Assembly (NCBI GenBank): GCA_026419785.1
Contig: JAODTK010001122.1
Span: 1 to 64,000, forward strand
Length of the DNA stretch: 64,000 bases
Direction of reading: 5' to 3'
Source: Sclerodactyla briareus
Lineage: Eukaryota > Echinodermata > Holothuroidea > Dendrochirotida > Sclerodactylidae
Position numbers and translations under genes: made by a program. Shown in pieces: positions 14,641 to 64,000 of this stretch (the first letter of the stretch is position 1; each line of letters begins with the position of its first letter). The notes under the pieces are model-generated. The model was given only the letters and a program-made list of their open reading frames with translations, was not told the DNA's origin and did not search any database.

Positions 14641-15589
14641 CAAAATCAAACTTAAATTCATTTCATAAAAACATAAGTCAATAGGAAGATTCTCCTGAAC
14701 AGATAATCTTTTTCCAAAGACCGCGTGGTAAAGACCACAATCTTCCTGTGATCACCTTCGACTACACCTCTAAAGTTCAAACTTCATATAGACCACGTTG
14801 TCGCTAAAGTACAATATCAAATCATTACCACTGAAAGAATCTTTTCTCAAATACTTTCAAACAATTTTCCAACAATATTACGTTCTATCTGGAATAGGTG
14901 AATTGTTTTCTCACTGCCAGACCACCGACTTCACCCGGCTGAACGTCTTTTATGCAACCCTGAGAAGCCATGATCAAAGCTCCGATCCTACACTCCAAGA
15001 AAGAAGTGTTTGCCGCACCAACACAGTCACGAATAAAGGAAAGAATTTTAACTGTCAATAAGATAATTAATAACAAAGATACAGATCCCCATATCCCAGG
15101 AAATTGATCCAACAGCAGGTAATAAACGTAACCCATCTAATACAATAAAAACGTCGTTTGGGCTGTTTATTTCAGGAGGGGAGTAATCGAGATTGGTTAC
15201 GCGAAATGGGGAGTACTGGGGATGAATATGGTAGTGGTTATTCCGATGATACTTTTTCTTCGTCCGCCCAGCCTCCCCATCCATATCCTCTTTCATTGGG
15301 TATGGCCTCCCATGTACCCGGGGTTGGTTGGATTCTGATTTATTTTTTTCTGGCTTCTGCCCCTCCAACCCGGAGGAGAATTAAAAAAAAAATATTATGG
15401 TTTGTAAGGGGTTTTTTCCTCGGTTTTTCCCTCCCAAAGTGGTCCCCACTTTTTATTTTTTAATTACAGTATATTGGAAAAATACGCTCACATAAAAACA
15501 AACAGCAACATTTATAAGAATCCTATTATCGAGAAGAGGGCAACATCCCGTGTCCTGACCTCCTTCACACCTATTACCAGACAATTTAT

Positions 15590-17799
15590 GGGTAGTGAAT
15601 CACCTTGGACCCTCTTAGCGCCAACCCATGGCGGCGCTCCTCTCAGATGGCAAATTTGCACCCCCAGGAAATGGTCAGCCCTTCCCCAGCGCCCGCCTAC
15701 TGAAGAAAGTCCTGGCTAAAGCCACCGATGGGACAAAAGTATAGTAAATATCCCGAGGTTCAAATTCTGGACAACGATTGTATAATCTCTTTTACATTGC
15801 AATATGGAATACCATGAATGAAACATTGATTATAATTTTCATTGTCTGGTAAACTGAGCCAGTCGTCGGTTGGCCACAATAAGAGTCAGACAGGCAATGC
15901 TCACACCCTGAAGAGCAAACACCACCAGCGAAAGAACGACTTCCGTATTTCAATTGTCATAACTTGATCAAAGTAACCGAGGCGTACCTAAGGCGTCGTC
16001 AGCCCATTGTTCACCTGCGAGCCCTTCTGGTGTGTGCACATTTAGCACAATTTCGACTGTGGTATTTTCTTTTCTAGGGATAACTGTCCTCCTTCAAAGA
16101 GGTATTATGTCTTGCACACGTTTCGCAACGCGTCAGCACTATGCCGTTCAGGCCTACATATCACTATGGTACAAATCAGCCTACGGTACATAGAAACCAA
16201 TTTCACATTGACATTTAGCCTAATTGCGGTATATACCATATCGATATTGAATAATATTAATAATAATAAAATAGTGCGTCGAGGAAGCTGATCGTGATCT
16301 CCAAAGAGCCCCTTAACCGCCCCCGCACGGTCGAGCGCAGTCCTTGTTTGGTTTTGCTATATTGCACTAGATTGCATCAACGACCACCTTTAATACCAAA
16401 AATCTGAAGCTCTAAGATCCACGCGAAATATTTTTCTGAGGGACTCGAGGTTCAGGCGAGCTATATTACACCAATTGCAATCAACGGCTGCCTGGAAATA
16501 CAAAAAAAATTCACACGATACTATGTGATAATATGGAATCGAGCCCAGGATAAATCAAAAGTGAAGGATTACCTCAAATATTTACCGAGTTACCAATTTT
16601 TCGTTGATTGCCCCCGAAATGTGTTAAAACTCACGCGCCCCACGCGTAATAGTAAGTATTGTCGTCGTTAATAGGCCCTACTGAACATGATTACAGGAAA
16701 TTTTACTTCGGCAACTTTTGAGATTGGGGCCATCTCATCTATTACATTTTTTAATGTGGCGAACAAGTTTGCTATTCCACTGCATTAGCTCCTTAAATGG
16801 AAGTGTCATTCCCTCCGTGATTGGGCAGGCCCAATATGCTAAAATCCAATTGTGTGCGCTGAGCGCCAACCCATGGATCCCTAAACTAAAAAAGTAGTCA
16901 TACAAATACACTCAGATTGGAAGAAAAAAAATGACTACATGAAAAAATGTTTATTGTTTTTGGGTCTGTTACTTAACAGTACATCGCAATAATTAATACC
17001 CAAATAACACTACGTGTATTATAATTTAATTTGGATCTGGTAAAAGAAAGCCAGTCAGTCCTGTATCGCCCAATCCAGTGAAGATAATACACAGTATGTC
17101 ATCCATGAGGTTCGCAAGAAAATCATGATATTAAAAACCAGTGTTATCAATCTTCGGAGCAATGTTTACATTGCAACAATAAGTACCCCCAATTTACTGA
17201 TATACCTTTTCATATAATTCGATTGTTCTGCTAAGAGAATTAGTTCAGTCTGGTTGCGCAATGCCATATTTGAAAGACAGCAATCAAGTTCACTCCTGAC
17301 TGATTGCATCACACCACACCGCTCGGGCGACCTCTATTTTCTTACTCTGAATCTCAAGTTACCGAAGCTTAGAGAGCGTCGTCTCGATTGTTCCACTTCT
17401 GAAAGCCTACAATGGTGTGAACCATGCTTGCATTTAATCCCTGCAAGTTACTACTGCAGGTTCAATCGGCAGTGGATACTGTAGCCCTTCTTAGACCATC
17501 GCCGTGGCGTGTGCTCGTTAGTCATTCATAGCCTCATTGGTCAGTTTTCTAAACGAGATCAAGTTCACAGTTTAACGAAACTATCACAGAGCTACCTTCA
17601 GACCATTCTGTCATTCTTATTTCGCGATCGCGAACTAAAATCAAATTCACATTCATATTTCTTACCTCGGGTATACTTCTGGCTATATTACCAATTCATG
17701 GAGAGTCCCCTGACAACCGACTGTGTGTCATAAAGGACCTTACTGTATCACATCGGGGTATTTAGTCACTTACACCACACTGGAATCTACTTTTTGCAG
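15590..17799. repeat. Unit leader, U1 copy
   Basis: About 2.2 kb with no conserved reading frame. It starts with MITE-related DNA (ccaacccatggcggcgctcc) and includes a gcgcggtccctgg-like stretch in its homologues. It also contains a direct repeat: the agccagtcagtcc/tggttgcgcaatgcc module occurs near 15860, 17050 and 17260. Copies are at 25741-28016, 35341-37222 and, rearranged, 43831-46818 and 52871-56312. Confidence 0.65.
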
Positions 17800-17916
17800 T
17801 GGATTATTGGATGTTTCTCCCTCAATCCCTGGGATCTGGGGGGGGCCCATAGGGAGGAGTACTGCACCGGAGACGCTGTAGTTTCCTGGACGTTATCTTG
17901 AGAGATCTTGGCATTG
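17800..17916 (+). CDS. Putative cysteine-containing exon, U1
   Basis: An acceptor (ctactttttgcag) and a donor (ggcattg|gtaagc) bound about 117 nt. Read across the five copies the open frame is DIGCFSSNPGICTREEYC followed by TGDTCSFMDV and an ILRDLGI ending. That gives four cysteines spaced C-x7-C-x5-C-x4-C. In U1 alone the frame is interrupted. It lies about 2.4 kb upstream of homeodomain exon 1 and might be part of that transcript or a separate small gene. I recognise no family. Confidence 0.4.
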
Positions 17917-18772
17917 GTAAGCTAATCTTTCCAGATAATATTTTTTATTTCCAGACATTTCAGATCCCGGTTTAGAGGTTGTTGTACGGCGCGACAAGTG
18001 CACTTCAACTATTTAAAGGTTAATGGTTGAGGGAAATATATGGGGTTACTTATACGGGCTGCCATATCTTTTGATAGTAAACGATACGGAGAATTCGACA
18101 TCGATAAACCGAAATCGCTAACAATGATATGGCAATGTAAAATATGTTCCCGATTATTTGACGTGACGTTATTGAGCGTCACCGTCCATTTTTGTGTGTT
18201 ATGAGAGATTACCGTATATTCACTCTAAAAAAACCTATTTCCGTCCATAATGAGTATCATGAGTCATCACCAACGAAAATGGTATAGAATACGTCCGAAG
18301 AAATACGTTTTTTTTGCGCATGAGAAATTAAAAGAAGAAAAAAACCAATCAGAAATATAATCAGTGTCTGTCATTTAGTGGCTATTAGAAAAGAAAATGT
18401 GTCATCCAGATTGCCCCAATAATTTGGGGAAATCGTAAATTGCCATTCTTCTCTGAGTGAGGAAAAATAATTCGAAATATCACTAGGGTGTCCCGTGAAT
18501 GTTGATACACTTCTCACATTCAATACATGCGCACCCTGCACTACTGCTAATATACGGCTTCATATGCACTTATCGATCCATATGCTGATCGACTCATGAT
18601 ACAGACACTATACGCATTTGACCATTTCTCTTACATGGCTGGGTCCTAAAATTTTACCCCCCCCGCGACTATGGTAAATGTGCACGGTCCTCAAAATGGG
18701 TAGTTATGACCCGGACTGGGTAAAACGAATCCAAGTGGTTACGGGAGACGTGCCCTGCATCAGTGCGTACCT

Positions 18773-19440
18773 GTTTTTTGCATTCAGTGGAGTCCTTTGA
18801 GCTGTTATTTTTAGCGAATATTGCAAGCGCCATATTGCCATATGATGTTCCCTCTGGAGTCAGATCCCCATATTAGGAAGTTAATCTTGCAGCACAGTGT
18901 CTCCCACAACCCATGAGAAAACGTCGTTGGGCTGTGTATTTCAGGAAGAGTATCGGGCGTGGTTGGGGGTTGGCAAATAATGGGAGTGGGGGATGGGAGG
19001 GCTTTTTAGCTTCGGAGAGTTTTTTTTTCCCTTCGTTTTTCCTGCCTCCCCGTCCCTATCCTTATTCAATTTCGGTTCCCCTCCGTCCACGATCCGTGGG
19101 TAGGAGCCAGTATTTGTCCCCTGGTCTCCTTCCCCTGCCATCGGGGAAAAAATAATATATATATTTTGGGGGTTTTCTTTCTCGGTTTTTTTTTCCTCCA
19201 GATGCATCCCCCTTTTTTAATTTAAATTCAGTTAATATGGAAAACCACTCCTAAAATAGCTAGTTTACGGACAATCCATTATAGGAGAAGAAACCCATCC
19301 TGCGTCTTGCCTCCTTACAAACCCATTACATCATCCATAGGGAGGGTGAGGCCATTTTTGTAGGGCGCACATCCCTTGGGTTTCCGACCTCAAACACCCC
19401 CCCCCTCCCCCGCCCAGACAATCTCTCGGTAAGCTGCATT
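18773..19440 (+). mobile_element. Truncated, internally deleted LINE 3' end, U1
   Basis: The copy starts cagtgcgtacctg after ccctgcat and ends near ctctcggtaag before ctgcattcc, so gcat-containing flanks act as a target duplication. It corresponds to the 1.3-kb copies in U2 and U3. About 0.6 kb is missing between a short ggagtc/ccctctgg stretch (about 18855) and agatccccatattagg. The 3' UTR with cctgcctccccgtcccta is kept. U4 and U5 have the empty site near 47680 and 57160. Confidence 0.7.
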
Positions 19441-20338
19441 CCTACCTGTAATGCACCGGGTGTTGCCCAACATAAGAGTGCTCCATTACCCGATACTGGT
19501 TGCACACGGGAACGGTGTTCACGAAACGGAAAGAGGTTTGTAGGCCTACCGCCTTTATATTGTCTCTTATATTTTTTTTTATAGTTGTCTAACTGGTTAG
19601 GACTTCACAGGGTGTTTAAAATGAACGTCCTTCGTCTACCTACCCTAGAAAGGCTTGAAACAGGAAGGCGTATTACTACCATTCTGAGCAAACTTTTGCC
19701 GATAGCAATCGCACTTCGTTGTTGTATTCAGTACAATTATGCTGTTGAAATATCTTTCTAATCTTCTACTGCTCGAATATTCACAAACTAACATCACAAG
19801 GGACACATCACTACTATGACTTCATCTCTCCGGCCAAGAATGACCGTCGTGATATTTGTAGCCTGCCGTTCGCCATTTCAACCACCTTCAGTCACTGTTG
19901 CTGGCTGCCATTGCAGTAAATCGCTTTGTATAAATTATGAGGGTGGAACGTGTATTTCAGTAAATTCTTGGAGGTCCACGTTATTTGATATTTGAATGGT
20001 TTCAATTTCTGCGTCAAGGCAAAGTAACAAGTACATATTCAAGTCACAGCATGCGCTTCTTCTCCACAGATTGTTACTCTTGATCTTACCAAAGATTTTA
20101 TGGTAGTTGTATGGTCCCTGATATTTTCTACAAAACGCAAATTTGTATCGTGATTCCTAGATAGTGCATGGACTGTGCAGTTGTCTCTCCCCCTCCCCCA
20201 TCTCCCCCAAAAAACAATTTTTCTATACTATTATATTATATCACGCCCAAATGTCTTGTCGGGAGATGGATTCACACAGCAAGGTTCTTTTTTATGTTTT
20301 CATTGACACATGTGTTTTTTATTTATTTTGACTCCCAT
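19441..20338. other. Region upstream of homeodomain exon 1, U1
   Basis: This aligns with 30236-31009 in U2 (landmarks gaacaggaaggcg, cgcacttcgttgttg, ctctcggccaagaatgac). A possible acceptor and short exon (tatttcag then taaattcttggaggtccac, about 19961) recur in U2 but the frame closes quickly. No protein is recognised. Confidence 0.4.
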
Positions 20339-20719
20339 AGTGTACCCCTACGCGTCCCTTCTTCCCAGCCACCATCTCGCCTCTATCCACTGACGTACCG
20401 CCGACATCCTCCCTGCCGTTCTTTTCCACCGACAACCGCCGACCGACCGCCCAGTTCGAACGCTTCCGTCGTTATGCCATTCAATCTACGGCGCCTCGAC
20501 CAAGCCTGATGGACCATTACCAGAGGAACTGGGGATGGTTATGTGTCCAACCTGTCACAACCGCAGCAGGCCCACTGTACTCTGTCGCCGACCAGGAGAG
20601 CCATCATCTAACCACGAAAGTTATCTTGAAGGTGGCGTTCACCCAGACCAAGTGGCCAACGCCTGTCAACGTAAATAATCTCAGCCACGATCACCGGGCT
20701 GGATGAAGAAACCATTCGG
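20339..20719 (+). CDS. Homeodomain exon 1, U1 (Ser/Thr/Pro-rich arm plus helices 1-2)
   Basis: The exon follows a pyrimidine-rich acceptor region and ends ACCATTCGG|gtaagc. Its first part encodes a Ser/Thr/Pro-rich segment. The last part encodes the homeodomain N-terminal arm and helices 1-2: KVILKVAFTQTKWPTPVNV, then a TG(L)DEETIR ending. In homeodomain numbering this places L16, F20, W25 and P26 correctly. U1 is the copy that keeps the full TTCACCCAGACC codons at residues 20-23, lost by one base in U4 and U5. One or two small indels separate the two parts. It pairs with the exon at 21762 across an intron of about 1,040 bp. Confidence 0.72.
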
Positions 20720-21761
20720 GTAAGCCACTCTTCGTTATTACAGTTATCAACGTTTCTTTTTCAGTGGGAGGTGATCATGAAATCATTTAGAGGAGAACTG
20801 ATGAGGAAGACTGAGGACACATGATACAAGTGGTGATATGTCGATATTAAACGTTTGTTATAAGACCGACCTATTCGGCGGAGTCAGACTACCGGTATAT
20901 AACACCGGGGTCAGTTACAATAGGTTAAGGTGAAAGCGAATAGAGAACATGTCATTCCTATTAAACATCACGGGTACTGCGATGGTAAGGCTATGCTGAA
21001 AACGATTTTTTTTTTCTCGACAATGGATTAGATGCATAAACAGTATGGTGAGTAAATCGGCGGATCGGATACATATAGTAACTAATGGATAAGGGGACGC
21101 GTTAAAGTGTTTTAAGGAGGTATTCCATACATAACAATCATTTTTGCCATGATGCGGCATGACTGCCGCTTTTGGGGGTTACACATGGTTATTTTGCTTA
21201 CTCGACGCTCGTGCGTTCCATTCAGTTGGAGATGGTTTTTTTATTGCTGCCTGAGCCGTGTCTTATATATCTGCAAGCTAACTCGTAGCTTATTCGGACA
21301 TCTTTCATGTTTATACTTAATGTGGGTTCCCCGAAAGGGGGTCCGCCAATTGACACGATTTACTCGACATTGTGATAACGGTCACAATGTGAGTTCATTT
21401 AGGGCACAACAAGTGTTCGTATAGAATTTTATTCATAGATGTTTCTGCTGAGTTTCGGCTCACGGACGGTCCCCGAAGTGGGTAAGTAAGCCTTTTTGCG
21501 GGTACGCATTCTCCAGGAATGAGCAGTAGTTATGCAGAGGATTCGGGCAGATACGGTTCCCCCTCCCCCGGCCGTCGCGGTGGCGACCCTGATGTAGAAT
21601 CTAGCCCCCCCCCCTTTGTGGCATTGGCGCCAGAGCTTTCCAGGGACAAGACGAGGCCAGGGACATTATATTCCAATCCTTCATACTCAATACAAGAATT
21701 CCAATGTGTACTGCGTGTTACGTTTTTCATCAATATTTTTGTATTCTTCATTTTATTACAG

Positions 21762-21948
21762 GCATGGTTTCTGAGCGAGAGTTTTTTTTATCCAGGAGTT
21801 GAAGCGGGAATTTTTGGCGATGAATCCGAAGGAGAGGACAGATGAGCGCAGGTGAATGACGCATTCAGATGTGATTCATTGGCTTCTCTACATCGGACGA
21901 ACGGACAGGCGGGGACTTAACGAGGGCGCCAGGGTGTGTCCAGGCTGA
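21762..21948 (+). CDS. Homeodomain exon 2, U1 (helix 3 and acidic tail)
   Basis: The acceptor ttttattacag precedes G(A)ATGGTTTCTGAG, the W48-F49-S50-E51 start of helix 3. A T-run follows, then an acidic DESEGED stretch and the shared TGA at 21946-21948. The T-run and a missing T in TTTTCT break the frame here. The call rests on alignment with U2, U4 and U5. Confidence 0.65.
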
Positions 21949-22164
21949 ACCATTGGCGGTGATGGCCGGTCCTATTACAGTGCTGCAAACATTGCAGGGC
22001 GTACGTAAATGAGAGCCGGGGGGCCGTAGCCCTTCCAGGGGGGGTCTAAGCAGGACAGCAATTGATAATAATTATTATCAATAAATATAATATTCAATTT
22101 GTGGGTTTATCCATTCGCTTGAACGCTTCAGCACCTTCTGTATAGAAATATCGTTAGGGAACTG

Positions 22165-22745
22165 CGTGCAGGGGACAAAGATGATAAAACATATTGTCAC
22201 AAATGTTTAAATCTATCAAAAATTATCGCTAGATTTGTAGTTTGAATGGTCGAGCAAATCAATTGCGGGTGATGATGAATCCTTGAAAACATTTTGGTTT
22301 TGTTATGGAATTATATTCTACATCGAACGCAGTTGGTAAGACCTTACTTCGAGTATTTCGTGCAAGGGGCATGGATTATTATTTCGAAAAGATATAAGCC
22401 GCTAATTGGCAAGTTTAAAGGAGGGCCAGCGTAACCCTCAAAAGTCCCACACCCCCCCCCAAAAACTGTCTGCGATTGCCGGGATGAGAAAAGGATTCCA
22501 GAGTTTTTTTTTGTCTTGGTTCTGATTTCAATGGAGGGAAGAGAGATTCGGGTGGTTGTGAGGGGGTTGTTGATTTTGATTCAAGTTCACAATGCTTGTC
22601 ATGGCTTCGGACCTTCCTCTCGGGACAATTCTTTGTCCCCAAGATCCCTCCACTGTTACCACTAAAAGGGGTCATTATATGCATGGTACGGGCTAACAAG
22701 TTGACACCACCCGAACTGGCTGTTCTAAGAAACCCGACATAGTGG
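22165..22745 (+). mobile_element. LINE RT C-terminal fragment, U1 copy a
   Basis: Same fragment as at 9030-9560: a VRPYLEYFVQ-like block near 22335-22365, then rgh-like and aacaagttgacacc landmarks near 22690. It starts about 220 bp after the homeodomain stop, so it could form part of the 3' UTR. Confidence 0.65.
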
Positions 22746-22775
22746 CGTGCCACGGTGGGTGTGCGGGCGGGGGAA

Positions 22776-22803
22776 GGGGGGGGGGGGGGGGGGGGGGGGG
22801 GGG
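22776..22803 (+). repeat. G28 homopolymer
   Basis: An uninterrupted run of 28 G follows the gtgtgcgggcgggggaa stretch. The same place in U5 has 33 G (60804-60836). Such runs can form G-quadruplexes and are also prone to length errors in sequencing. Confidence 0.9.
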
Positions 22804-23129
22804 CGCGTGTGGGAGGTCATCCAGTGGTTTATTTTTGCGACATGAACGGAGGAGGGAGGTCAAGTTGTTGTTTCAAGTTTACTCGAGGCGGCATAGGCCG
22901 CCGTTCGTCGTTTTTTAAAACTGTGACGTCACTTTACGATACTGAGGGACGCCTGTGTAATTTATGGTATCTACTCATGATATTACATACGTCAATCAGT
23001 GCTTCGAACATTATTCGTTTTTTTCAAATTTGTCGATTTGTAAGTGCTGTGCGAAGAGAGAGGGAGGAGAGAGAGAGATAATAAATCGAAACGAAAAAAA
23101 CTATTTTATGAGTTGTGAGTATTAATTTC

Positions 23130-23500
23130 GAACCTGCGTTGCAGGGGACCCAGATAATAAGGTGCATTCATTATTTCGAAAAGATAAAGAGTAAGGGAGA
23201 ACGTTCAAAGAGGGCTGCTAAGGAATCAAATCAATGGTCTGCGATTTGTCGTCTGAGGAAAGATTAGAGCGTCTTGTCTGATGTCAATTGGAGCGAAGAG
23301 ATATTTGGGTGATCCTTGATTCATCAAGTTCAAACAAATTGTCAATGGCTGTCGATGTGACCCCTCTGCCTCTCGACTACTTCTTCTGATATTCCTATTG
23401 TTACCACTTTAAAAGGGGTTATTAGCTCGAAGTACGGGCAACAAGTTGACACCGCACCGACCGACTTGGGTACCTAAGACCTACATAGTGGCGGTGTGCA
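23130..23500 (+). mobile_element. LINE RT C-terminal fragment, U1 copy b (shortened)
   Basis: This is a second copy of the same LINE segment. It begins with the ctgcgttgcaggggacccagataataa landmark, then jumps to cattcattatttcgaaaagat and continues to the acaagttgacacc end near 23440. An equivalent second copy exists in U5 (61135-61640) but not in U2. Confidence 0.65.
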
Positions 23501-24019
23501 TGCACGGTGGTGTGGGCGAGGGGGGGGGGGTGGTGGGGGGGGGGGGTCCGTAGGGGGGGGGGGGGGAGGGGGGGCCTTGGAGTTTTGCAGGGGTATCCTT
23601 CGTGGTTAGCGACAGTGAACGGAAGGAGGGAGATGTCGGGGAGGAGGGAGAAGGGGAGGGAGGTCGGTCAACGTTGTTAAAGTTTACAAAGAGCGGCATA
23701 GAAGCCGGCTTTTCTAAAACGAACCCCCCCCGCACGACTTTACGATAATGAGGGACTCCTATGTCATATGGTCTGCTCATGATCGTACATACGCCACAAT
23801 CCGACTTCGAACATTATATTTCATTGCAAATTGGTTCGATTGGTAGTGTGTGTGCGAGGAAAGAGAGATGGAAGAGAGATATAATTCGCAACCGCAACAA
23901 CATTTATTGCGTTGTTATAATACTTTCAAACGTATCTTTATCCTCTCATTCCCATGGATGCCACACTGTGCTTCAGTCTCACCGCAAGGGTCATCCGGAA
24001 ATATGAATGGCTTATTGAA

Positions 24020-50995: not shown

Positions 50996-50999
50996 TATT

Positions 51000-51365
51000 T
51001 TGGTGTGTATTGTTATTCACATCGGAAGAGTTAGCCTTTACCCTCGAGTATTTCGTGCAAGTGTGCATGGATTCATTTTCGACGGGATCAAGCCATAATT
51101 GAAACGTCAAAGGGGGGTACGGAATTCATCCACTGTTGCAGATTTTGCCGTCTGGGAAGATTAGCGTCTTTGGTCTGATTTCAGTGGATCGACGAGCAAT
51201 TCTGGGTGACTTGATTCAAGTCAAATTTGGCAAATGGCTTAATGTCCTTTTTTCTCCTACTTCGTTGAATATTCTTATGTTACCACTAATAGGGGCCATT
51301 ATCTCAAGTTACTGGCTAACAAGTTGACACCGCCCAAACTTGTTTCCTACGATCGCCCTCCATTA
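51000..51365 (+). mobile_element. LINE RT C-terminal fragment, U4
   Basis: Starts near the leu-glu-tyr-phe-type stretch (ctcgagtatttcgtgcaag, 51043). It includes the ERR-equivalent region near 51190 and ends with acaagttgacaccgcccaaacttg near 51330. Orientation and position are as in other units. Confidence 0.6.
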
Positions 51366-53599: not shown

Positions 53600-54440
53600 A
53601 TAATAAAACGGACTTTTCATTTCGCCGTTTTAATCCAACATTATGTCAAAAAGCGATTTACAAGATTAAAAAAAACATATATAGGAGTTGAAAAATGCAC
53701 AAATGATATAGTGAAAAAATGCGGCAAATGGACCCAAGCAGTTGAGGAGCCCAAAAGAGTTCCCGCAACCCAAAAAGGCAAAGCGTAAAAAAACTCTTAG
53801 AACGTGAATAAAAGTGAATAAAAAAAACCCACAAAACTATACATAGACAAAACCGTAAGGACTTTTGATAAGCCAACGACTAGGGATTAACAACCCTACA
53901 ATCTGATTACTGACGCACCACACCATGATCGGAGCCCGTGGCCCACTGTAACTGAAAATAAGATCACAGTTAGCTCATTCCAGGGTATAAATGGTATGAT
54001 TAATATCACGGGGCTTGTGAATTCGTATTTGGATCATTCTAGCTACTCATGAATGGTTGATATTTATCAAATTCGTTCATACGTCTACGGTGAAGAATCC
54101 TCTAATACATTCGATATCGATGCGGTCCGCAACAATGTTATGGCATGAAAAATAGTCCGATATGCCTAGATGCATATATGTAGACCGCACGGTAATAAAC
54201 CATTCCCTTATTGTTGTCAATGGAGGGGGTCTATCAATACAATGTGTCCTTGAATCATTCTCACGATGGATAGACTAGAAAGGATTAAATTAAGTAAACT
54301 ATTACAATTCAGAAATAGCTAAATGCGAAAGAGAGAATACCTAACCCAGACACTCTAGGGAATTAACGCTTGAGAATGAAAAATAAAATACTTAGGAACA
54401 CGTGTTCTTAATTGCAATATTTTCATTGTTCAGTGGAGTC
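53600..54440. repeat. Block R, U5 copy
   Basis: Matches 44540-45410 in order and orientation, including aaaatgcggcaaatgg, cgtaaggacttttgataagc, aagatcacagttagct and tgttgtcaatggaggg. It differs by many short indels. Confidence 0.6.
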
Positions 54441-54500
54441 CGGTTTTGCCTAATGCCATATTTGACAGACAGACTTATGTCCACAACCTGATCAGGCTGC

Positions 54501-55412
54501 CAGATGCGTCCGGAGGTATTGATGGGGGGGGGGGGGGGGGGGGTTAAGGTCTTGTTTTGGGCCGATGGATGTGACAGACCGGTGAACTGATAATATACGG
54601 GGGAGGGGTTCTAAAGTAGGTGAATGGAGGTGGTCCCCCTCCCCTTTGGAAAATTTTGAATATTGAACACAGGTCCTCAGATGCACCCATCTGGTTGCAA
54701 TATTGTCAGTAAAATTGGGTGCGTTCAAATTACTACTCGAACTCGACCCCGCTCACCACGTACTCGGGAACCTTGCAATTTGGGAACGCTGAAAAGTCTG
54801 TTCCCGTATCCTAACCAATGCCCGGCTTTTGACTGGCAGCTTCGTCAGTATGAAGCGGCCATGAATATATACTGCGCGTGAAACGCGCAAAAATTCGACA
54901 CTTCAATGGGGCAATTGATCAAGTTTTCGGCCATTTAGGACAAATTTCAGACCAATTTTCCACGTTTGCCTTTGGATTCTCTAACCAGGAATCAACTTTA
55001 TGCTATTGCCCAAATTATTTTCCTGCCCGAATTTTTCATGTTAGTTCTGGAAGATTCTTTCTTAATTGTTTTCATCAGTCGAAATGGCTCGAAAAAATGT
55101 GTATCATCTATAATATATAGGAACCAGAAACCAAAATGGCGAAGACGGTCAAACCAACGAAAAAAAAAATTTCCAATGCTAACGTCCTGTATTCCCTCCC
55201 TTTTGCCGACATGGCGACAGACTCGATCACTCGCCCAATTATCAACGACGGCGATGGCCGTCACATTATCATTGTTGCCAACGTGCTATTTCTCTTTGCC
55301 GAAGCTGAATGGGGCCGAAAATTTTGGCCGACATGCGACAAAATTATTGGGGGTGTGAACCCCCCCCCCCCCCCACACCACCACACCCCCTCTCGCTTAA
55401 ACGCCGGGTCTG
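54501..55412. mobile_element. MITE family 2, U5 copy
   Basis: The left end is cagatgcgtccggagg; the right end, reverse-complemented, is cagacccggcgtttaagcg. These are G-rich inverted repeats of hAT style. Flanks caggctgc and cggctggc are a poor 8-bp match. An interior ORF (55136-55504) contains a His/Pro-rich stretch produced by the terminal C-run and is not transposase-like. Confidence 0.6.
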
Positions 55413-56312
55413 CGGCTGGCATCACTAGGACGACTGCTATTGTCATTATCCTTGATCAAAGTAACGTTAATTTAATGTGGGAAAAGTTTTGCTATCACGC
55501 ATGACTCTTTGAAGGAAGTCCATTCCCTCCCGTTATATGGGAAGGCCCATTTGCTAAGCAGCGCGAATCCCAGTAAGGATAATACCAGTAGTTACCGGTA
55601 CCATGAGATTCGAACGAAATCATAATATTAAAACAAGGTGTTATCCTCTCGGGGCATTTTTACATTGCAATAATGAGTACCCAAGTCACTCGAGTAAGTA
55701 CCGGATATACATTTTCAATATAATTCGATTGTTCTGTCTGCTAAGAGAAATTAGTTCAGTAGTCCGGTTTGCCGCAATGCCATCTTGGAAAGACAGGCAA
55801 TCAGTTCACACCCTGAACTGATTGCATCACACCACCCACACCCGCCCGGCGACTTCTATTGTCATTATTGATCAAAGTTTCCCGAAGCTTAAGAGCTGGC
55901 GTCTCACATTGTTCCACTTCTGAAAGCCTACTAAGAGTGTGAACCAGGCCTTGATTTAACCTGCAAGTACTACTGTCCGCAATGCTGCAGGGAGTTCCTG
56001 TAACCTAGACCACGCTTGGCGCGTGCTCGTTAGCTATTCAAACTCATTGGTCAGTGTCTAGCGAGACCAAGTTCACATTAACGAAACTAGTATCAGAGAT
56101 ACAAGTTCAGAACAATTCTGTCATTCTTATTTCGCGATCGCGAACTATCACAAGTCACCACGAATTCTATGGGTCTTTCATGGTTATACTTCTGCCATAG
56201 TACCAACAAGGAGAGTCCCCTGAACACACCCGACTGTGTCACAGGACTTTACTGTAGCACACCGGGAGTCATTCAGTCCACTTACATCACGACTGGAATC
56301 TACTTTTTGCAG

Positions 56313-56422
56313 TGGATTATTGGATGTTCTCCTCAATGCCTGAGATATGCACTAGAGAGGAGTAATACTGCACCGGAGACACGTGTAGTTTCATGGATGT
56401 CATCTTGAGAGATTTCGGCATG
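56313..56422 (+). CDS. Putative cysteine-containing exon, U5
   Basis: Acceptor ctactttttgcag, donor atg|gtaagc. The frame for CTREE.YCTGDTCSFMDV is nearly continuous across GATATGCACTAGAGAGGAG, TACTGCACCGGAGACACG and TGTAGTTTCATGGATG, with a two-base interruption. This is among the best-preserved copies. Function unknown; see 17800-17916. Confidence 0.42.
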
Positions 56423-57369
56423 GTAAGCGAATATTTCCTTATTTTTCAGATTCAGGTTTATAGGTTGTGTACCGTGACAAAGAGCGACTTCAAATAAAGT
56501 AATGGATAAGGGAAAATATATGGGGATACTTTAAACTGGCTCCATTATCTTTTGATAGTAAACCATGACGAAAGAGCTACGGTGACGTTGAGTGACGTCA
56601 CGACTGAAATAGGCGTCTAGCAATTCGATATCGTACGTATATCGTCGACATGATATGTCAGTGTAAAATAGGTTCCGATATATTTGACAGGACGTCATGT
56701 GAGCGGCATCGTCCATTTTTGTGTGTTTATGAGAGTTCACCATCAATTACACTCTAAAACTGTGCTACGAATTATAATGGAGTAATATGCGTCGATCACC
56801 CAACGGATAATGGATGAAATATGTCGAATGAACTATGTTTTTATTCTTTGTGTCTGTCATTTAGTGGCCATTTGAAAAAAAATGTGTTATCCAGCCATTC
56901 TCTGAGTAAGAGAAAAAAAAATCGGAAATCGGTTTGGTGTATGACACTGCTCACATTCAATACATCGCACACCTGTACGTACTGCTATATCTGCTTTATA
57001 TGCCCTGATCGAGTCAAGATATACCATCTCACAATCTTTCACCATAACTGGGTCATAATTTCCCGATTTATGGTAAATGTTCCCTAAAAAGGGAGGTAGT
57101 ATGACCCAGACTGGGTTAAACCGAATAGCCAAGGTGGTCGGGTACGGTATACGTGGCCTGCATTGTTCCGTGTATGCTTCGGGTGTTATGTTGCTAGACG
57201 CTACTTCGGAATGCTTCATTTACCCAATCCTGCTTGAACCACTTTTCTCAGATAGAGGGTGAACGGTGTTCACGAAACGGAAAGAGGTTGTGTACCGCGA
57301 TCTGGAGTAATATTTCTTTAATGATTGTTGCTGGTTAAGGAAATCACAGGGGTATTTTATGAAAGTCCT

Positions 57370-57705
57370 CATCGTTGATTTGCGCGTTTCGGAACATGGC
57401 GATCGTTTCGAGACCAACTTTTGTTTTCGCACCATGGGTCCCCACCGGCGGCCATTTTGGATTTTTTGGCGAAACTTTCTTATCGCGGATTTGCACGTTT
57501 CGGAACATGGCGATCGTTTTAGAACCAACTTTTGTTTTCGCACCATGGGTCCCCACCGGCGGCCATTTTGTATTGTTGTTTGGGAACTTTCTATCGCTGA
57601 TTCGCGCGTTTTGAACATGGCGATCGTTTTGGGACTAACTTTCGTTTTCGCCCATGGGACCCCACCCGGCGACCATTTAGGATTTTTGGGACGAAAGATT
57701 TTTTA
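57370..57705. repeat. 111-bp tandem repeat, three copies (U5)
   Basis: Copies start near 57375, 57486 and 57597. Each carries gaacatggcgatcgttt, ccaacttttgttttcgc and ccatgggtccccaccggcgg. Frames on both strands stay open through the repeats because the period is a multiple of three, which explains the 120- and 132-codon ORFs here; I do not treat them as genes. Confidence 0.9.
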
Positions 57706-57875
57706 TCGCTTTTTGGGTTAATCTTGATTGTCAAATGAGATGTCAACATCGTCGTCCACTGATTGCTCAAATGTGGGATATACACGTTGGCGGTTCACCC
57801 TCAAGGCGACGTCTAGTTATACTTGGAAAATATGAGTATGTTAATATAATAGCTCCATGGTATGAAGTCATACCA

Positions 57876-57895
57876 GCGCGCGCGCGTGTGTGTGT
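57876..57895. repeat. (GC)n(GT)n tract, U5
   Basis: Same position and form as 48157-48178: gcgcgcgcg then tgtgtgtg. Confidence 0.85.
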
Positions 57896-58309
57896 GACTC
57901 TACTGAACACACGGTGCTAACCATGGCTGACATATAGGTGAACGATGCTACTATACTACTAAGTATGAGCGTTTCTCATTTCTTCCGTTCGGGGCAATGT
58001 CAAAGTCACCAGCCTGAGGACTTGTGAAAACTTTGTGAACGCGGAGAGTTCAGAATGCTCAGTCTGATCAAGTTGAAATTTTATGTGCAGCTCTCTTATA
58101 GGAAGTACATGAATCCAATTATTTATTTATTTTTGTTGGGGAGTAAATTGGATATAGTGACGGATTTTCGTTCTTAATGATTAACGATTAATGATAACTT
58201 GGATAGGTTCGAATTGGGGAAACACATACTTAGTCTCGCAGTGTTCTCAATATTATATATAATATTCTTCAATACCTTATTTTTTAAATATTCACTCTAT
58301 GTCACTCAG

Positions 58310-58412
58310 ATTTCTTGTGGTGGATTCTGGCAGACATGAAACAAGAAATTTCGTTCGAATATTCATTCGAGGCTTCGAAGTTTACAACGAGACGATTTCA
58401 AATGCCAAAAAA
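58310..58412 (+). CDS. Putative exon upstream of homeodomain exon 1, U5
   Basis: Bounded by acceptor atgtcactcag and donor aaaaaa|gtaatg. From 58311 it is open for 34 codons (FLVVDSGRHETRNFVRIF through YNETISNAKK) and ends in phase 0. The next exon starts 126 bp later in phase 0 with the Ser/Pro-rich frame, so the two splice in frame. No domain is recognised, and U1 and U2 have no clear equivalent. Confidence 0.45.
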
Positions 58413-58537
58413 GTAATGCTTCTATTGTGTTGTTCATGCTATATTACATCAAGCTCCAAATGTAAGTGTCGGGAGATGGATTCACACGACAAGGTTTTTT
58501 TTGACACGTGTTGTTATATGCTTTTTTGTTCTTTCAG

Positions 58538-58913
58538 AGTGTACCCCTACGCATACGGTCTTCCCAGCCACCCCTTTCACCTCTATCCACTGATGTACCG
58601 CCGACCTCAGTCCTGCCGTTCGTTCCACCGACACCGTCGACCGACAGTACTAGTTCAACCGATTCCGTCGTTATGCCATCGTCTACGTCACCTCGACCGA
58701 GCCTGATGACCTTCAAGAGAGGACTGGGGATGGGTAGGTGTCCACCCGTACACCGCAGCAGGCCACTGGACTCTGTCGCCGACGCAGGAGGGCCATCATT
58801 CCTAAACCACAGAAAGTCATCTTGAAGGTGGCGTTCACCAGACCAAGTGGCCAACGCGTGTCAACGTGGATAATCTCTGCACGATCACCGGGCTCGATGA
58901 AGAAACCATTCGG
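58538..58913 (+). CDS. Homeodomain exon 1, U5 (best-preserved copy)
   Basis: Homeodomains are three-helix DNA-binding folds of about 60 residues in nuclear transcription factors. The acceptor is tttgttctttcag. From 58538 the frame is open through a Ser/Thr/Pro-rich arm (LSPLSTDVPPTSVLPFVPP, then a STDSTSSTDS run), typical of disordered transactivation regions. The homeodomain frame follows: the basic arm CRRRRRAI at about 58776-58799, then KPQKVILKVAF (58804-58836), a one-base loss, TKWPTRVNVDNL and TITGLDEETIR ending exactly at 58913 before gtaagc. Homeodomain landmarks L16, F20, W25, P26, L34, L40 and I45 fall at canonical spacing. The exon ends after residue 46. Confidence 0.82.
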
Positions 58914-59875
58914 GTAAGCCACTTTTCGTTATTACAGTTATTAACGTTTCTATTCATCCGTGTGAAAGTGATCATCGCTGTGAAGGTGATCATGGTAAAC
59001 CATTTAGGAGGCGACTGATAAGGAAGACTTGAGGACACCGTTTAACACACGTGTGTGAGTTGTCGTTTTTAAACGTTTCCTAAGTTCATAGGACCTACCT
59101 ATACCGGCGGACTGTCAGACTGTGTGACACTCGGTTGCTGCGTGCGGTATGAATTAAAAGATCGATAACAGTTTTGCGTGGGAAAACGATTTTTTCGAAG
59201 ATGGATTAACAGTATGGTGATATAAATGGGGGATAAACATCTAGTAACTTATGGATGAGGACGTTAAATTGTTTTAAAAGGAAGACAATTTGCTTCAATT
59301 TGCTGTGATGCGGCAACAAGGCCGCATTGGTACACATGGTAATTTTGCCTACTATACGTTCGTTCCATTTCAATTGGATGGTTATTTTGCCGCTGAGGAG
59401 CTTGTATTTATATCTGCAAGCTAATTGCAGCCTCTTTGGACATCTTTCATGTTTTTACTCACCGTGGGGGGTACCGCCATTTTCCACTAATTCTACACAA
59501 CATTGTGTAACGTTCACATTGCTGCGTTTATTCTAGGCCACGCAGGCGTAGTTATGGAATCTTATTACAAATATATATAGAGGACGCTAAAGTCCGGTTG
59601 TGTAAGTAGAGCATTGTTGCGGGTACGCATCTAATGACTGAACATAATCAGAGAAATTCGGGCAGAGACCTGGTCCCTCCCCCCCCCTCCCCCTCCGCTC
59701 AGTGGCGAACTGATGTGGATCTAGGTCTCTGCATGCGCCCCTTTGCGCCAGCGCTTCCAGGGACAAGAGGAAAGGACATTATATCAATCATTCATACTCA
59801 ATAAAAAGAATACAATGTGTACTGCGTTATACCGTTCCATCAAAATATTTATTGTAATTCTCCACTTTATTACAG

Positions 59876-60058
59876 GAATGGTTTTCTGAGCAGAGAGTTT
59901 TATCCAGGATGAAGCGGCGACTTTTTAGCGATGAATCCGAAGGAGAGGCAGATTAAACTGCATTGAAGCATTCCAGATGTTGATTCATTTGGCTTCTCTA
60001 CATCGATGAACAGCCATGCATGGCTAAACGAGGGCGCCAGGGTGGAAGTCCAGACTGA
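59876..60058 (+). CDS. Homeodomain exon 2, U5 (helix 3 and acidic tail)
   Basis: The acceptor ctttattacag precedes GAATGGTTTTCTGAGCAGAG. The frame continues directly from exon 1: EWFSEQRVLSRMKRRLFSDE then SEGE. It gives W48, F49, E51 and R53, followed by a basic KRR stretch that could serve in nuclear import and an acidic tail. The conserved TGA lies at 60056-60058 after one frame slip near 59950. WFSE at 48-51 recalls ZHX-type homeodomains (WFSERR). Glu at 51 instead of Asn predicts weak or altered DNA contact. Confidence 0.8.
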
Positions 60059-60269
60059 ACCATTGGCGGTGTAGGGCCGGTTATACCGTGCTGTCAACCA
60101 TGCAGTGGCTTAATGATGAGCCTTGGGGCCCGCAGCCACTTTCAGCGGGTTAAAAGCAGAGGCAGCGATTTGTAGTAATTATTATCAATCAATAATATTT
60201 TCAATATTTGTGGGTTTATCCATTCGCTTGAACGCTTCGCACCTTCTGCTATAGAAACTATAGTTAGTG

Positions 60270-60780
60270 AACTGCGTGCAGGGGACAAAGATGATAAAAC
60301 ATATTTTCATCAAATGTTTACATCTATTAAAATTATCGCTAGATTTTTAGTTTGAATGGTCGAGCAAATCAATGCGGTGAATCCTGAAAACCTTTTGGTG
60401 TGTAATTCTATTCTACATCGAAAGCAGTTAGTAAGACCTTACTTGAGTATTTCGTGCAAGTGTGCATGGATTCATTTTCGAAAAGATAAGCCGCTAATTG
60501 AGAACGTTTAAAGGAGGCTACGGAATCAATTCACTGTCTGCGATTTGCCGTATGAGAAAGGATTAGAGTGTCTTGGTCTGATTTCAATGGAGCGAAGAGA
60601 AATTGGGTGATTTGATTCAAGTTCACAAATTGTCCATGGCTTCGATGACCTTCCTCTCGACTACTTCTTTGAATATTCTCATGATCCCACTAAAAGGGGT
60701 CATTATCTCGAGTTACGGGCTAACAAGTTGACACCACCCGAACTTGTGTTCCTAAGATAACCTACATAGTGGTGGTGCAC
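60270..60780 (+). mobile_element. LINE RT C-terminal fragment, U5 copy a
   Basis: This is the clearest copy. It holds a gtaagaccttacttgagtatttc block (RPYLEYF), then LPY.ERL-equivalent sequence near 60545, GLISMERREI near 60573-60603, and a TKRGHY.EL-like stretch near 60690. It begins some 210 bp after the homeodomain stop. Confidence 0.7.
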
Positions 60781-60800
60781 AGGTGTGTGTGCGGGCGGGG

Positions 60801-60803
<3 letters not shown>

Positions 60804-60836
<33 letters not shown>
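60804..60836 (+). repeat. G33 homopolymer
   Basis: An unbroken run of 33 G inside a longer G-rich tract (60793-60836), at the position of the G28 run in U1 and the weaker G-rich stretches near 9570, 23520, 51400 and 61660. Confidence 0.9.
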
Positions 60837-61134
60837 CGTTGCAGGAGATCCTTCGTGGCTTAGCGACATGAACGGAGGAGTGTCGGTCAACGTTGTTTCA
60901 AGTTTACTCGAGGCGGCATAGAGCCGGCCGTAAAACTGACGCACTTTACGATACTGAGGGACTCCTGTGTCATATGGTCTACTCATGATATGTATACATA
61001 CGTCAATCAGTGCTTCGAACATATATTTCGTTTCAAATTTGTCGATTGTACGTGTGTGCGAGAGAGAGAGAGAGATAATAAATCGAAACGAAACATACAT
61101 TTATTGAGTTGTTATTATTACTTTCGAACTGCCG

Positions 61135-61640
61135 TGCAGGGGACCCAGATAATAAAACATATTTTCATCAAATGTTTACATCTATTAAAATTATCGCTAG
61201 ATTTTTAGTTTACATGGTCGAGAAAATCAATGCGGTGAATCCTGAAAACATTTTGGTGTATAATTTTATTCTACATCGAAAGCAGTTAGTAAACCTTACC
61301 TGAGTATTTCGTGCAAGTGTGCACGGATTCATTATTCCGAAAATATAAGCCGCTAACTGAAAACGTTCAGAGCAGGGCTTCGAAATCTATTCACTGTCTG
61401 CGATTTGCCTATGAGGAAAGATTAGAGCGTCTTGGTCTGATTTCAATAAGGCGAAGAGAAATTCGGGTGATTTGATTCAAGTTCACAAAATGTCCATGGC
61501 TTCGATGACCTTTCTCTCGAATACTTCTTCGAATATTCTCATGTTACCACTAAAAGGGGTCATTATCTCAAGTTACGGACTAACAAGTTGACTTCGCCCA
61601 AACTTTTGTTCCCAAGATCACCTACATAATGGGGTGCACA
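61135..61640 (+). mobile_element. LINE RT C-terminal fragment, U5 copy b
   Basis: Second copy of the same segment, longer than U1 copy b. It repeats gggacccagataataaaaca, the LEYF-equivalent and the acaagttgac end near 61590. The (GA)n tract at 61057-61076 lies just before it, so the duplication included the flanking microsatellite (a second GA/G-rich stretch lies at 61890-61920). Confidence 0.68.
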
Positions 61641-62039
61641 GGTATGTTGTGTGCGGGAGGGGAGGGGGTGGTTGAAGGGGATCCCTCGTGGCTTAGCGAC
61701 ATGAACGGGGAGAGTCGGTCAACGTTCGTTTCAGTTTACACGATGGACGGCATAGAGCCGGCCGTGAAACTGACGCACTTTACGATACTGAGGGGACTCC
61801 TTGTCATATGGTCTGCTAATATATGTTCATACTCAATCAGTGTTCGACATATATTCGTTCCAATGTAGTGATTGTATGTGTGTCTGCGGAGGGAGGGGGG
61901 GGGGGGGAGAGATGGAGAGATGATAAATCGAAACGGAACATACATTTTTGGTTGTTATTCTTGTTATTATTACTTTCAACGTATCTTATCCTCTCATTCA
62001 CAATGGATGGATGCCACACCGTGATCCAGTATAACAGAC

Positions 62040-62820
62040 CCCCGGGTCAGTAAATATACTGGGGCTCTTAGTACTTCCTAGATTATGGTGTGTGTGAGCT
62101 GTCTTGGCCAAGTCTTCCAAGACGATTAGTTAGTTTTAAAATTTAAGTCTGTAAGGTTGTCAGACTCTTTCAGTCGGCTGAAGAATCTTCCATTCCGGAA
62201 TAGTCCCCAAATATTTTGCAATATCATTAGGCTACATTTTCTCCCAGGTTTTTCTATGCGCACGAGAGTGATGGCGGGGGGGGAGGGGGGGGGGGGGAGG
62301 GGGGTGGGGGGGTGACCTCTACTGATGAGGGCGTCATAAAAGTAGCTTCACCGTGCATGTGACTATAATTATATATCATCACTTCTATGATCTTCACTGA
62401 AAATATAGCTAGTGTACTGCGTGTCCTAGTACTAGTGTACTTTCGGTACGAATATGGCATAAATAATATATTTGTGAACAATCTAGAGTTAAAAAATATG
62501 CGGACGAAAAAAACTTGCATGGGAGTACCTTCGAATGATGATGTTGCAATTTTTAAAAAAGAATTTATAGGAAACTACCCAAATGGCCTTCCCGATTGGC
62601 AAATGTTTTTTTGTTTTTTTTTTGCCCGATTATACATGCTAACGTGATGCATATCGGCTATTATAACGCCACGCGTTCTTCTAGTAATGGTCAAGAAAAT
62701 CTACTGCCGGTGAATCCTGAAAATATTGTGGTTTGTGATTTTCATTCTACATTGAAAGCAGTTGGTAAGACCTGCCTCGAGATTTCGTGCGGAGTGTACA
62801 TGGGATCTGTATTTCGAAAA
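62040..62820. other. U5-specific stretch, no gene recognised
   Basis: It includes a G-rich tract (62276-62312), the segment shared with U4 (62430-62560) and a short LINE-like remnant near 62690-62790 (tgaatcctgaaaatattgtgg, then a cctcgagatttcgtgcgg match to the LEYF region). ORFs here are short and unassigned. Confidence 0.4.
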
Positions 62821-62859
62821 GATCGATTCACTGTGGTCGCGATTGCAGTGTTGTATAGT

Positions 62860-62940
62860 CGAGGCCGCAACCTCCGCGACCAAGGCCGAAGCCACACCCT
62901 TGAGGCCAAAGCCGAGGCCAGACCACCCGAGGCCGGCAAT
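62860..62940. repeat. gaggccg-type short tandem repeat
   Basis: Variants of gaggccgaagcc and gaggccaaagcc recur about six times and end at gaggccggcaatattaata. One or two copies exist at the matching place in U0 (10577) and U1, so the tract has expanded in U5. Confidence 0.7.
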
Positions 62941-64000
62941 ATTAATAAAATTAAAGAATAGTTCAATTTTTTGGGCGGAATTATTATAATTATAAAATTA
63001 CTATAAACAGTAAACATAGGCTAGTAATGATTACACGAATAGAGTGACATGAATTACGATTTACGGAAACACTTGACAAAAAATATTATAAGTATAAGGA
63101 ATCAAGTTTAGGCGAATGGTAAAAGTACTGCTATAGTAGAAAGCTGTACCCAGACGTTTTTGACATGACTGAAAAACAGAACAGATATATAGGGGCCTAC
63201 TCATCAGGCAGAAGAGAGTAATTTAATAAGTATGAGCTTAATTTATTACCAGGTCTCATAAGTATACGGTGTCCTACAATTTGGCTAATACACCAGTGCA
63301 CTAATCGACAAAAAATACAGATTGTCTGGCATTTCATGAAAAATGGGTTATCGGAAGAAAAACTTGGGCAATGTTTTATTATCTGCACAATTCATTACCC
63401 CTTTTATTACTTCTTTAACACAACTTCCCACCCCGAAAAATAGACGTACGCATGTTGATCGTTATCGTGGATTACACTGACACATTGTCACATGCTCACG
63501 GAGTAATCGAAACGCAAACCGGCGCTCTTAAATCTTCTAGCTCCAGTTGGAATGGGAAAAAAGGAACCAACGTGTATTGATCTTTTGAAAAAGCATAAAA
63601 AGTGTTGTATAATTTTCCACCTTATTGCAAAATCACCAATGTTGATTTGTTGATAATCTCTCTGCTTAATGCAAACACCACATGCAGTGATTCCTCATTT
63701 CATCATCTCATAAAGTAACTCACAGTAAGAGACACAATCAACCCAGCTATGAACATCAAAAAGTAAAAACCCATTGGTCCATAATAAAATACACAAATTA
63801 TTTACTGAAAAAGAAGGAATATTCATTTTAACAAAATCATGTATTTGCAATTTGTGTATAAAAAAACATGCAATCGACATAACCAGCAATATCACCCACA
63901 GTGAATATGATAATTATGCTGCAAACTGAAACCTATAATACGATCCAAGCCAAATGTCTGCTTAATTAATAATTCCAGCATCCTACAATAAATCCAATAT
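62940..64000. repeat. Unit trailer, second half, U5 copy
   Basis: It resumes the conserved trailer at caatattaataaaatt, with gtatgagcttaattt near 63229 and aatgggttatcggaag near 63342. It holds an insertion of about 150 bp (63640-63790) relative to U1 and U2. It is cut by the window end. Confidence 0.65.

Follow-up and report, generated by a model that had tools for sequence, protein, structure and literature searches.

Among the closest described systems is the sea-urchin hbox12/pmar1/micro1 gene, a clustered, multi-copy, small PRD-like homeobox gene expanded by segmental duplication, four copies of which have broken predicted frames (PMC5370098). Tandem amplification together with high divergence is also described for the PRD-class genes LEUTX, DUX and Rhox (PMC2211742; PMC8208926), and further tandem homeobox amplifications include D4Z4 DUX4 and Rhox (PMC2211742), the rabbit LEUTX array and the anemone mega-array. 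As far as these accounts describe them, they show that the earlier note on this DNA, which had called such amplification unusual outside a few fast-evolving groups, overstated its rarity; a homeobox array is a known kind of arrangement. Homeobox genes are usually conserved, and divergent tandem arrays of them mark fast change in early developmental control, of which pmar1/hbox12 in sea urchins is an example. The array studied here lies in a window of 64,000 nucleotides (the whole stretch analyzed) from Sclerodactyla briareus. Compared by description, it resembles hbox12/pmar1/micro1 in being clustered, small and segmentally duplicated, with some frames broken. On the other hand, the sea-urchin gene is described as having two exons separated by one intron, its copies often lying in divergent orientation, whereas the array has all units pointing one way, two exons that are certain and a candidate first exon of 30 nt, and a homeodomain which is split at codons 46/47 and lacks Asn51. 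Like LEUTX, DUX and Rhox, the array is tandem-amplified and highly divergent, but these examples are mammalian and the absence of Asn51 sets the array apart from them. We read the locus, with a probability of roughly 0.65, as a fast-evolving and probably lineage-restricted homeobox gene that was tandem-amplified and once selected, in an array that is now mostly a graveyard.

The layout of the array was obtained by self-BLAST, which showed a tandem series of repeat units on one contig, with approximate borders, unit lengths of about 8.5-11.3 kb and identities between units of roughly 70-90%. There are about seven units in all, with at least six homeobox copies side by side. The window contains, on the plus strand, a partial upstream unit with exon 2 only, U0 (8428..11670), followed by U1 (15582..25740), U2 (25741..35340), U3 (35341..43840), U4 (43841..52890) and U5 (52891..64000, continuing to about 64141), while U6, with both homeobox exons, extends from 64142 to about 75.3 kb, past the window end. 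Exon 1 was located in U1, U2, U3 (where it is split), U4, U5 and U6, and exon 2 in U0, U1, U2, U4, U5 and U6; a match to exon 2 was sought in U3, and exon 1 in U0, and neither was found. This series bears out the tandem array in units of 8.5-11 kb proposed in the earlier note, which was also right, within the window, in counting four units with both exons and two with one each. U0 lies upstream of position 15581, at which that note began the array, and U6 lies downstream of the window. A DNA search for copies outside this contig gave none (7/7 places matched were on the contig), and in a second search 13 of 14 homeobox-exon matches were on it, the remaining one having an E value of 0.8. These data suggest that the homeobox exons are confined to this contig, at the sensitivities used.

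The exons were placed on the plus strand in all copies. In U5, exon 1 (58540..58913) ends at the 46/47 donor, and exon 2 (59876..59956) encodes EWFSEQR, the acidic tail and the stop. In U1, exon 1 (20341..20719) encodes the S/T/P-rich part, the basic arm and homeodomain residues 1-46, and exon 2 (21762..21845) the homeodomain from residue 47 and the acidic tail. The corresponding exons are at 31012..31377 and 32389..32468 in U2 and at 48814..49184 and 50146..50223 in U4, and exon 2 of U0, found by exon 2 matching, is at 8662..8746; the exon 2 ends in U0, U1, U2 and U4 are approximate. Exon 1 of U3 (39677..41672) is interrupted at 39914/41535 by a 1,620-bp dispersed repeat (39915..41534, strand not assigned) with at least 72 matches, the best 40 of 163 first-look candidates having been scored. 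The exon 1 acceptor AG/TGTA, the exon 1 donor GGTAAG and the exon 2 acceptor ACAG are each present in 6/6 copies; for comparison, 14-17% of the dinucleotides in three noncoding blocks do not vary among six copies. The two splice-bounded exons claimed before are hence borne out, and so are the division of the homeodomain at codons 46/47, the basic arm and the acidic tail, which recur across copies. The S/T/P-rich arm, also said to recur, is present as a part, but a single frame is not kept across its join to the basic arm. Besides the two certain coding exons there is one candidate first coding exon, which in U5 (56393..56422, plus strand) would comprise a start codon, 10 codons and a GT donor and join exon 1 in phase. 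Its donor is present in U1, U3, U5 and U6 and its ATG in U2, U4, U5 and U6, so that both occur together only in U5 and U6.

To characterize the homeodomain, a consensus was joined across frames and splice, the frame being chosen by reading across copies. As the earlier note had expected, it matched the Pfam homeodomain profile PF00046, with 24.1-28.8 bits depending on query length (28 for the joined consensus, 24.1 without the basic arm) against a curated cut-off of 22.9; the sole NCBIfam match (E 0.07) was well under its cut-off. Trp48-Phe49 of helix 3 is present, as EWFSEQR in U5 and as WF in the exon 2 consensus. Asn51 is nearly invariant in homeodomains. No copy was read with Asn at this position, which is Glu in U2, U4, U5 and the consensus, the majority of the first clade (U1-U3) having Gly. 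A domain with Glu51 would be predicted to bind DNA weakly or in an altered way. An intron between homeodomain codons 46 and 47 is a PRD-class feature (PMC2211742), and in this respect the array gene is PRD-like, as the donor and the acceptor were each found in 6/6 copies holding them. The best single-domain structural matches, with the arm removed, were ZHX3 (7.2e-5), ZHX2 (8.8e-5) and HOMEZ (4.7e-4); DUX4 was the top PDB match when its two domains were summed (E 1.5e-7), though its single domains score below ZHX. The likeness to ZHX3 and ZHX2 extends to helix 3, where WFS is followed by an acidic residue-x-Arg (WFS-Asp-x-Arg in ZHX), residue 51 being Asp in ZHX2/ZHX3 and Glu in U2, U4 and U5. 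Unlike the ZHX/HOMEZ genes, which are described as having more than one homeobox each (PMC2211742), one homeodomain is seen per array gene, and the contig scan described below gave no second strong homeodomain in any unit. Zhx is also described as seemingly vertebrate specific (PMC4901127).

To compare the copies, the units were divided into two clades, U1-U3 and U4-U6. The clade-majority, error-filtered pN/pS in the predicted frame was 0.35 (one-sided p 0.007), based on 117 of 142 codons that were comparable and excluding 30 nt between the two exon 1 parts. This was the lowest of the six frames, the other five giving 0.47-1.64. Among 56 noncoding frames none had pN/pS of 0.35 or less with p of 0.01 or less, and one reached 0.40 (p 0.009). 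On this comparison, purifying selection seems to have acted in the past, during the divergence of the two clades, and the ratio on the consensus frame is not near 1, the value that the earlier note had named as contrary to its claim. Counted over locally aligned columns, identity to U5 in exon 1 is 87, 84 and 86% for U1, U2 and U3, versus 75, 73 and 79% in the flanks. Within U4-U6 the exons and flanks are alike: identity to U5 is 93.9% in exon 1 and 94.3% in the flanks for U4, and 91.2% and 90.8% for U6 (locally aligned columns), and mismatches in exon 1 and flanks are 7.3/7.1% for U4-U5, 15.9/14.9% for U5-U6 and 18.0/21.6% for U4-U6. Since exon 1 diverges there as fast as its flanks, selection seems to have been relaxed since, within U4-U6. 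More change has accumulated in U4 and U6 than in U5 (the distance of U1 exon 1 is 15.3% to U5, 21.9% to U4 and 27.1% to U6), which could partly reflect local assembly error, the flank control being nearly saturated.

The frame breaks in the copies had been proposed as a test of gene death, and this use was dropped as uninformative: at other loci of this assembly the frames of conserved genes are broken as well, so that breaks cannot tell live copies from dead ones. Reading a Hox-like homeodomain (L004) takes three frames within about 180 bp, and in-frame stops occur in 3/4 CCT and 6/14 HSP70 matches. An initial view of the assembly as accurate, taken from six open HSP70 exons, was reversed by this closer look at HSP70 and CCT. 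An extreme indel rate suggested by BLAST gap counts was likewise dropped after global alignments, which gave mismatch to gap-event counts of 225:60, 271:45 and 98:15 for three close block pairs. Among 10 open reading frames picked by eye on the same contig, two domains exceeded the cut-off, one a C-type lectin fragment and the other a BEN domain, and these did not suffice to estimate the error rate locally. A search for COX1 gave no match, with 3 candidates scored. In this assembly a broken frame is no evidence of a pseudogene. This leaves some room for a living multigene family, in which the breaks are assembly errors and most copies are intact, dosage-amplified early regulators like pmar1/hbox12; the broken conserved genes, the splice signals common to the copies and the pN/pS of 0.35 all fit it. 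We nevertheless consider it unlikely. The 1.6-kb repeat splits U3, no exon 1 was found in U0, and in U4 and U6 the divergence of exon 1 is about that of the flanks, so that a working gene family is not supported. In addition, one exon 1 frame break is common to U4 and U5, which is beyond random error, though systematic error could account for it, and homeodomain matches elsewhere in the assembly are stop-free in 15/15 cases over the matched stretch, none of which covers the full domain.

The opposite explanation, that the array is wholly dead, having been pseudogenised before or soon after amplification, with copies drifting as a tandem repeat, finds its support in other counts. When changes are counted over all pairs by codon position, third positions are not in excess in the homeodomain (0.201, 0.210, 0.202) or in exon 2 (0.258, 0.274, 0.270), but they are in the S/T/P part alone (0.231, 0.184, 0.289). 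Exon 2 by itself has a pN/pS of 1.39, resting on 3 changes, which weighs against the main reading. When every block is compared over the same five copies, the clades differ by 10.2% in exon 1, 3.4% in exon 2 and 9.0-30.4% in eight noncoding blocks; because two of the latter (9.0 and 9.5) are below exon 1, low divergence occurs outside the exons too. A first exon-versus-intron contrast had used differing copies per block and became weaker with the same five, which puts less weight on the main reading and more on a dead array. Still, a dead array is improbable in view of the error-filtered ratio of 0.35, lowest of the six frames, the closer relation of U1, U2 and U3 to U5 in exon 1 than in the flanks, and the splice signals retained in 6/6 copies.

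In a frameshift-tolerant homeodomain scan of both strands of the 212-kb contig, with 401 top peaks recorded, exon 1 of U5 ranked first (33.1), followed by a minus-strand peak at 23428 outside the array exons (23.8) and by exon 1 of U1 (22.4, the second-best array copy) and U6 (20.9) at ranks 3 and 4. The 99th percentile was 19.8, and exon 1 of U2 and U4 and exon 2 of U2 and U5 scored 17.6-18.2, inside the chance range. The homeodomain match is not chance, because U5 exon 1 stands at 33.1 against 23.8 for the next peak. That there is no homeobox, a homeodomain having been read into noncoding repeats through frame choice, is largely refuted and scarcely credible: the consensus did depend on frame choice, five distinct raw single-copy open reading frames gave no Pfam homeodomain match (0/5, as a dead array would also have it) and the unrelated minus-strand peak exceeds U1, but three array copies rank 1, 3 and 4 with frameshifts allowed everywhere, and a conserved donor and acceptor join both halves.

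Hence, we return to the once-selected, mostly decayed array. An ancestral fast-evolving homeobox gene, probably lineage-restricted, would have been multiplied through tandem segmental duplication, giving about seven units, each roughly 10 kb long and originally holding a small gene of two certain exons and the candidate first exon. The predicted protein, of about 165 residues with an S/T/P-rich N-terminus, basic arm, homeodomain and short acidic tail, may have acted in the nucleus as a DNA-binding regulator, and changes in copy number could have varied its dose or expression. Most copies would now be decaying, as suggested by the repeat-split U3, the incomplete U0, and U4 and U6, changed beyond U5. 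U5 is the least decayed copy and U1 the second; judged by their sequences, one or the other might still produce a protein, at somewhat less than even odds. A slightly more tentative proposal is that one or both are still functional members, the rest decaying, of an undescribed lineage-restricted family with an acidic residue for Asn51 and a PRD-type intron. If U5 or U1 is functional, a homeobox array is seen here midway through birth and death. The trace of selection at the old unit split and its absence at the recent one would make the gene's loss of importance datable. Downstream of U5 exon 2, the region 60290-61120 had been considered as an additional exon for its high conservation and was dropped, as query positions 133-423 proved to be a dispersed repeat, the best 40 of 817 first-look candidates having been scored.

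The self-comparison of the array contig (212,041 bp, of which the window covers the first 64,000; in an assembly of 319,486,128 bases in 3,171 contigs) showed that the tandem units U0–U6 lie head to tail in a single orientation, from the partial unit U0 (8428–11670) to U6, which lies past the window (64142 to ~75.3 kb). These units contain homeobox exons, which bears out the earlier note's description of a tandemly amplified homeobox gene; the array and its homeobox are real. The stretches 53590–55589 and 57190–58389 of U5 are common to U4, U5 and U6, and are absent from U1–U3 except for one weak bin in U1, which defines two clades of units. When exon 1 DNA of U5 was used to query the whole genome, seven places were found, corresponding to six copies, every one on the array contig. 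A protein query gave 14 places, 13 of them on this contig and one elsewhere with an E value of 0.8; searches with an array exon could miss a strongly diverged relative off the contig.

The joined consensus, which is the homeodomain reading assembled across copies, frames and the splice, matched the Pfam homeobox profile PF00046 with 28 bits (E 2e-6; cut-off 22.9), in agreement with the proposed homeobox identity, and with 24.1 bits when the basic arm was left out. Five distinct raw single-copy ORFs gave no homeodomain match in Pfam. To guard against the choice of frame, both strands of the whole contig were scanned with a profile that was made from 16 homeodomain sequences and allows frameshifts. 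Exon 1 of U5 scored highest (33.1), followed by a minus-strand place at 23428 outside the array exons (23.8), and by U1 (22.4) and U6 (20.9), among 401 top peaks with a 99th percentile of 19.8. Exon 1 of U2 and U4 and exon 2 of U2 and U5 scored 17.6–18.2, inside the chance range.

In all six copies exon 1 starts at AG|TGTA and ends at a GGTAAG donor, and exon 2 starts at ACAG, against a background of 14–17% of dinucleotides invariant across six copies in three noncoding blocks. The joined reading runs through an S/T/P-rich stretch, the basic arm RRRRR, helices 1–3 and an acidic tail to a stop, and the homeodomain intron sits between residues 46 and 47. The stretch joining the S/T/P part to the basic arm differs in frame among copies, and therefore continuity there is only putative. 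The recurring parts described earlier do join in the reading, apart from the uncertain frame of this link. Additionally, a 30-nt stretch ~2.1 kb upstream of exon 1 and in phase with it (56393–56422 in U5) is a candidate for the first coding exon. Four units keep the GGTAAGC donor of this stretch (U1, U3, U5 and U6) and four keep its ATG (U2, U4, U5 and U6), the two occurring together only in U5 and U6. The gene may have begun with such a short exon.

The frame breaks of the array were considered together with those of conserved genes in the same assembly. In-frame stops were present in three of four CCT matches and in 6 of 14 HSP70 matches, and a Hox-like homeodomain (L004), read by eye, passed through three frames in ~180 bp. 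Nine HSP70 exon places were translated, of which L043, L044 and L047 were broken with their residues conserved nonetheless. As judged by eye against HSP70, conserved residues of the open exons L038, L039 and L041 drop out and resurface in another frame, while the open exons L040, L042 and L046 were clean. Widespread families also yielded few matches (CCT 4, COX1 0, HSP70 14, only the best candidates being scored). Because conserved genes are frame-broken and such matches are few, base-level errors seem to be common in this assembly. On the other hand, all 15 homeodomain matches in the assembly were stop-free over the matched stretch, none of which covers the whole domain; some homeodomain exons elsewhere resemble, in their translations, posterior Hox, Nkx6 and Emx genes, which points to an animal genome. 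Hence, the array breaks are an inseparable mix of assembly error and decay, and the frames here are not trustworthy. One exon 1 break is common to U4 and U5, and a 1,620-bp dispersed repeat (39915–41534) interrupts exon 1 of U3; a genome search gave at least 72 matches to this repeat, almost all of them away from the array contig. Random errors account for neither the shared break nor the insertion.

To remove private errors, clade majorities were compared, U1–U3 against U4–U6 (for exon 2, U0–U2 against U4–U6), over 117 of 142 codons, with gapped, undetermined-base and stop codons dropped and 30 nt between the exon 1 parts excluded. The consensus frame had 12.5 synonymous changes per 90 sites versus 12.5 nonsynonymous per 261 (pN/pS 0.35, one-sided Fisher p 0.007), and the remaining five frames gave 0.47–1.64. 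In a noncoding control of ten blocks (60 frames tried, 56 usable) two frames were at or below 0.35, neither with p≤0.01, and one other had pN/pS of 0.40 with p 0.009. A signal of constraint, the object of the suggested dN/dS comparison, is seen in the consensus frame, but not in exon 2 alone (1.39, from three changes). The all-pairs counts also speak against constraint, as a third-position excess was found in the S/T/P part only, and not in the homeodomain or exon 2. Past function of the homeobox gene is supported by these sequence comparisons, not proved.

With the same five copies used throughout, the clades differed by 10.2% in exon 1 and 3.4% in exon 2 (9.7% and 3.4% with varying copies), and by 9.0, 9.5, 11.6, 11.8, 14.6, 21.1, 21.7 and 30.4% in eight noncoding blocks. 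In locally aligned columns the identity to U5 was 87.4, 83.7 and 85.8% for exon 1 of U1, U2 and U3, and 75.2, 72.9 and 78.5% for their flanks. Exon 1 is therefore better kept than its near flanks, yet some noncoding blocks are equally kept. Within the other clade, identity to U5 was 93.9% in exon 1 and 94.3% in the flanks for U4, and 91.2% and 90.8% for U6; global-alignment mismatches in exon 1 versus flanks were 7.3 versus 7.1% (U4–U5), 15.9 versus 14.9% (U5–U6) and 18.0 versus 21.6% (U4–U6). Exon 1 of U1 is 15.3% distant from U5, 21.9% from U4 and 27.1% from U6, which marks U5 as the least changed copy and U1 as closest to it in the other clade; the U1 flanks are 40–43% from all three, a nearly saturated control. 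This history reads as constraint first and relaxation afterwards.

Among PDB entries, ZHX/HOMEZ gave the top per-domain scores against the array homeodomain, while DUX4 led once its two domains were summed. Asn51 has been lost from the array, with Glu in U2, U4 and U5, where ZHX2 and ZHX3 have Asp, which suggests that DNA contact may be altered. Zhx appears to be confined to vertebrates (PMC4901127), Zhx/Homez genes have more than one homeobox each, and many PRD-class genes share the 46/47 intron (PMC2211742), as does the array gene. In its way of life the array resembles the sea-urchin hbox12/pmar1/micro1 cluster, in which the copy number ranges from 6 to 22 across seven individuals and four predicted frames are broken (PMC5370098). 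A partial survey of the homeobox-gene literature yielded no report of the array's family, and its absence from print is not claimed; this homeobox is a further case of an already known kind of system. Most likely, a small gene was duplicated in tandem in its entirety, together with the DNA around it; its protein, probably a homeodomain regulator, would then have been under selection for a time, before birth and death of copies to which repeat insertion may have contributed.

U5 also contains an internal duplication (60290–61120 and 61148–61962), in which positions 60422–60712 are a dispersed repeat (817 first-look candidates genome-wide, 40 of them scored). A 111-bp unit is repeated three times in tandem at 57377–57709, where both strands have long open frames. 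Imperfect G runs of 37–55 bases lie within units at 22765–22803, 23520–23574, 60793–60836 and 62276–62312. The stretch 6995–7349 is akin to repeats at 95–96, 120–123 and 141–143 kb of the contig, which recur about every 310 bases. The contig also carries a BEN-domain ORF (L033, 99797–100231; PF10523, 24 bits against a cut-off of 23.2) and a C-type lectin fragment (L058, 207700–208023; PF00059, 28.9 bits against 22.6).
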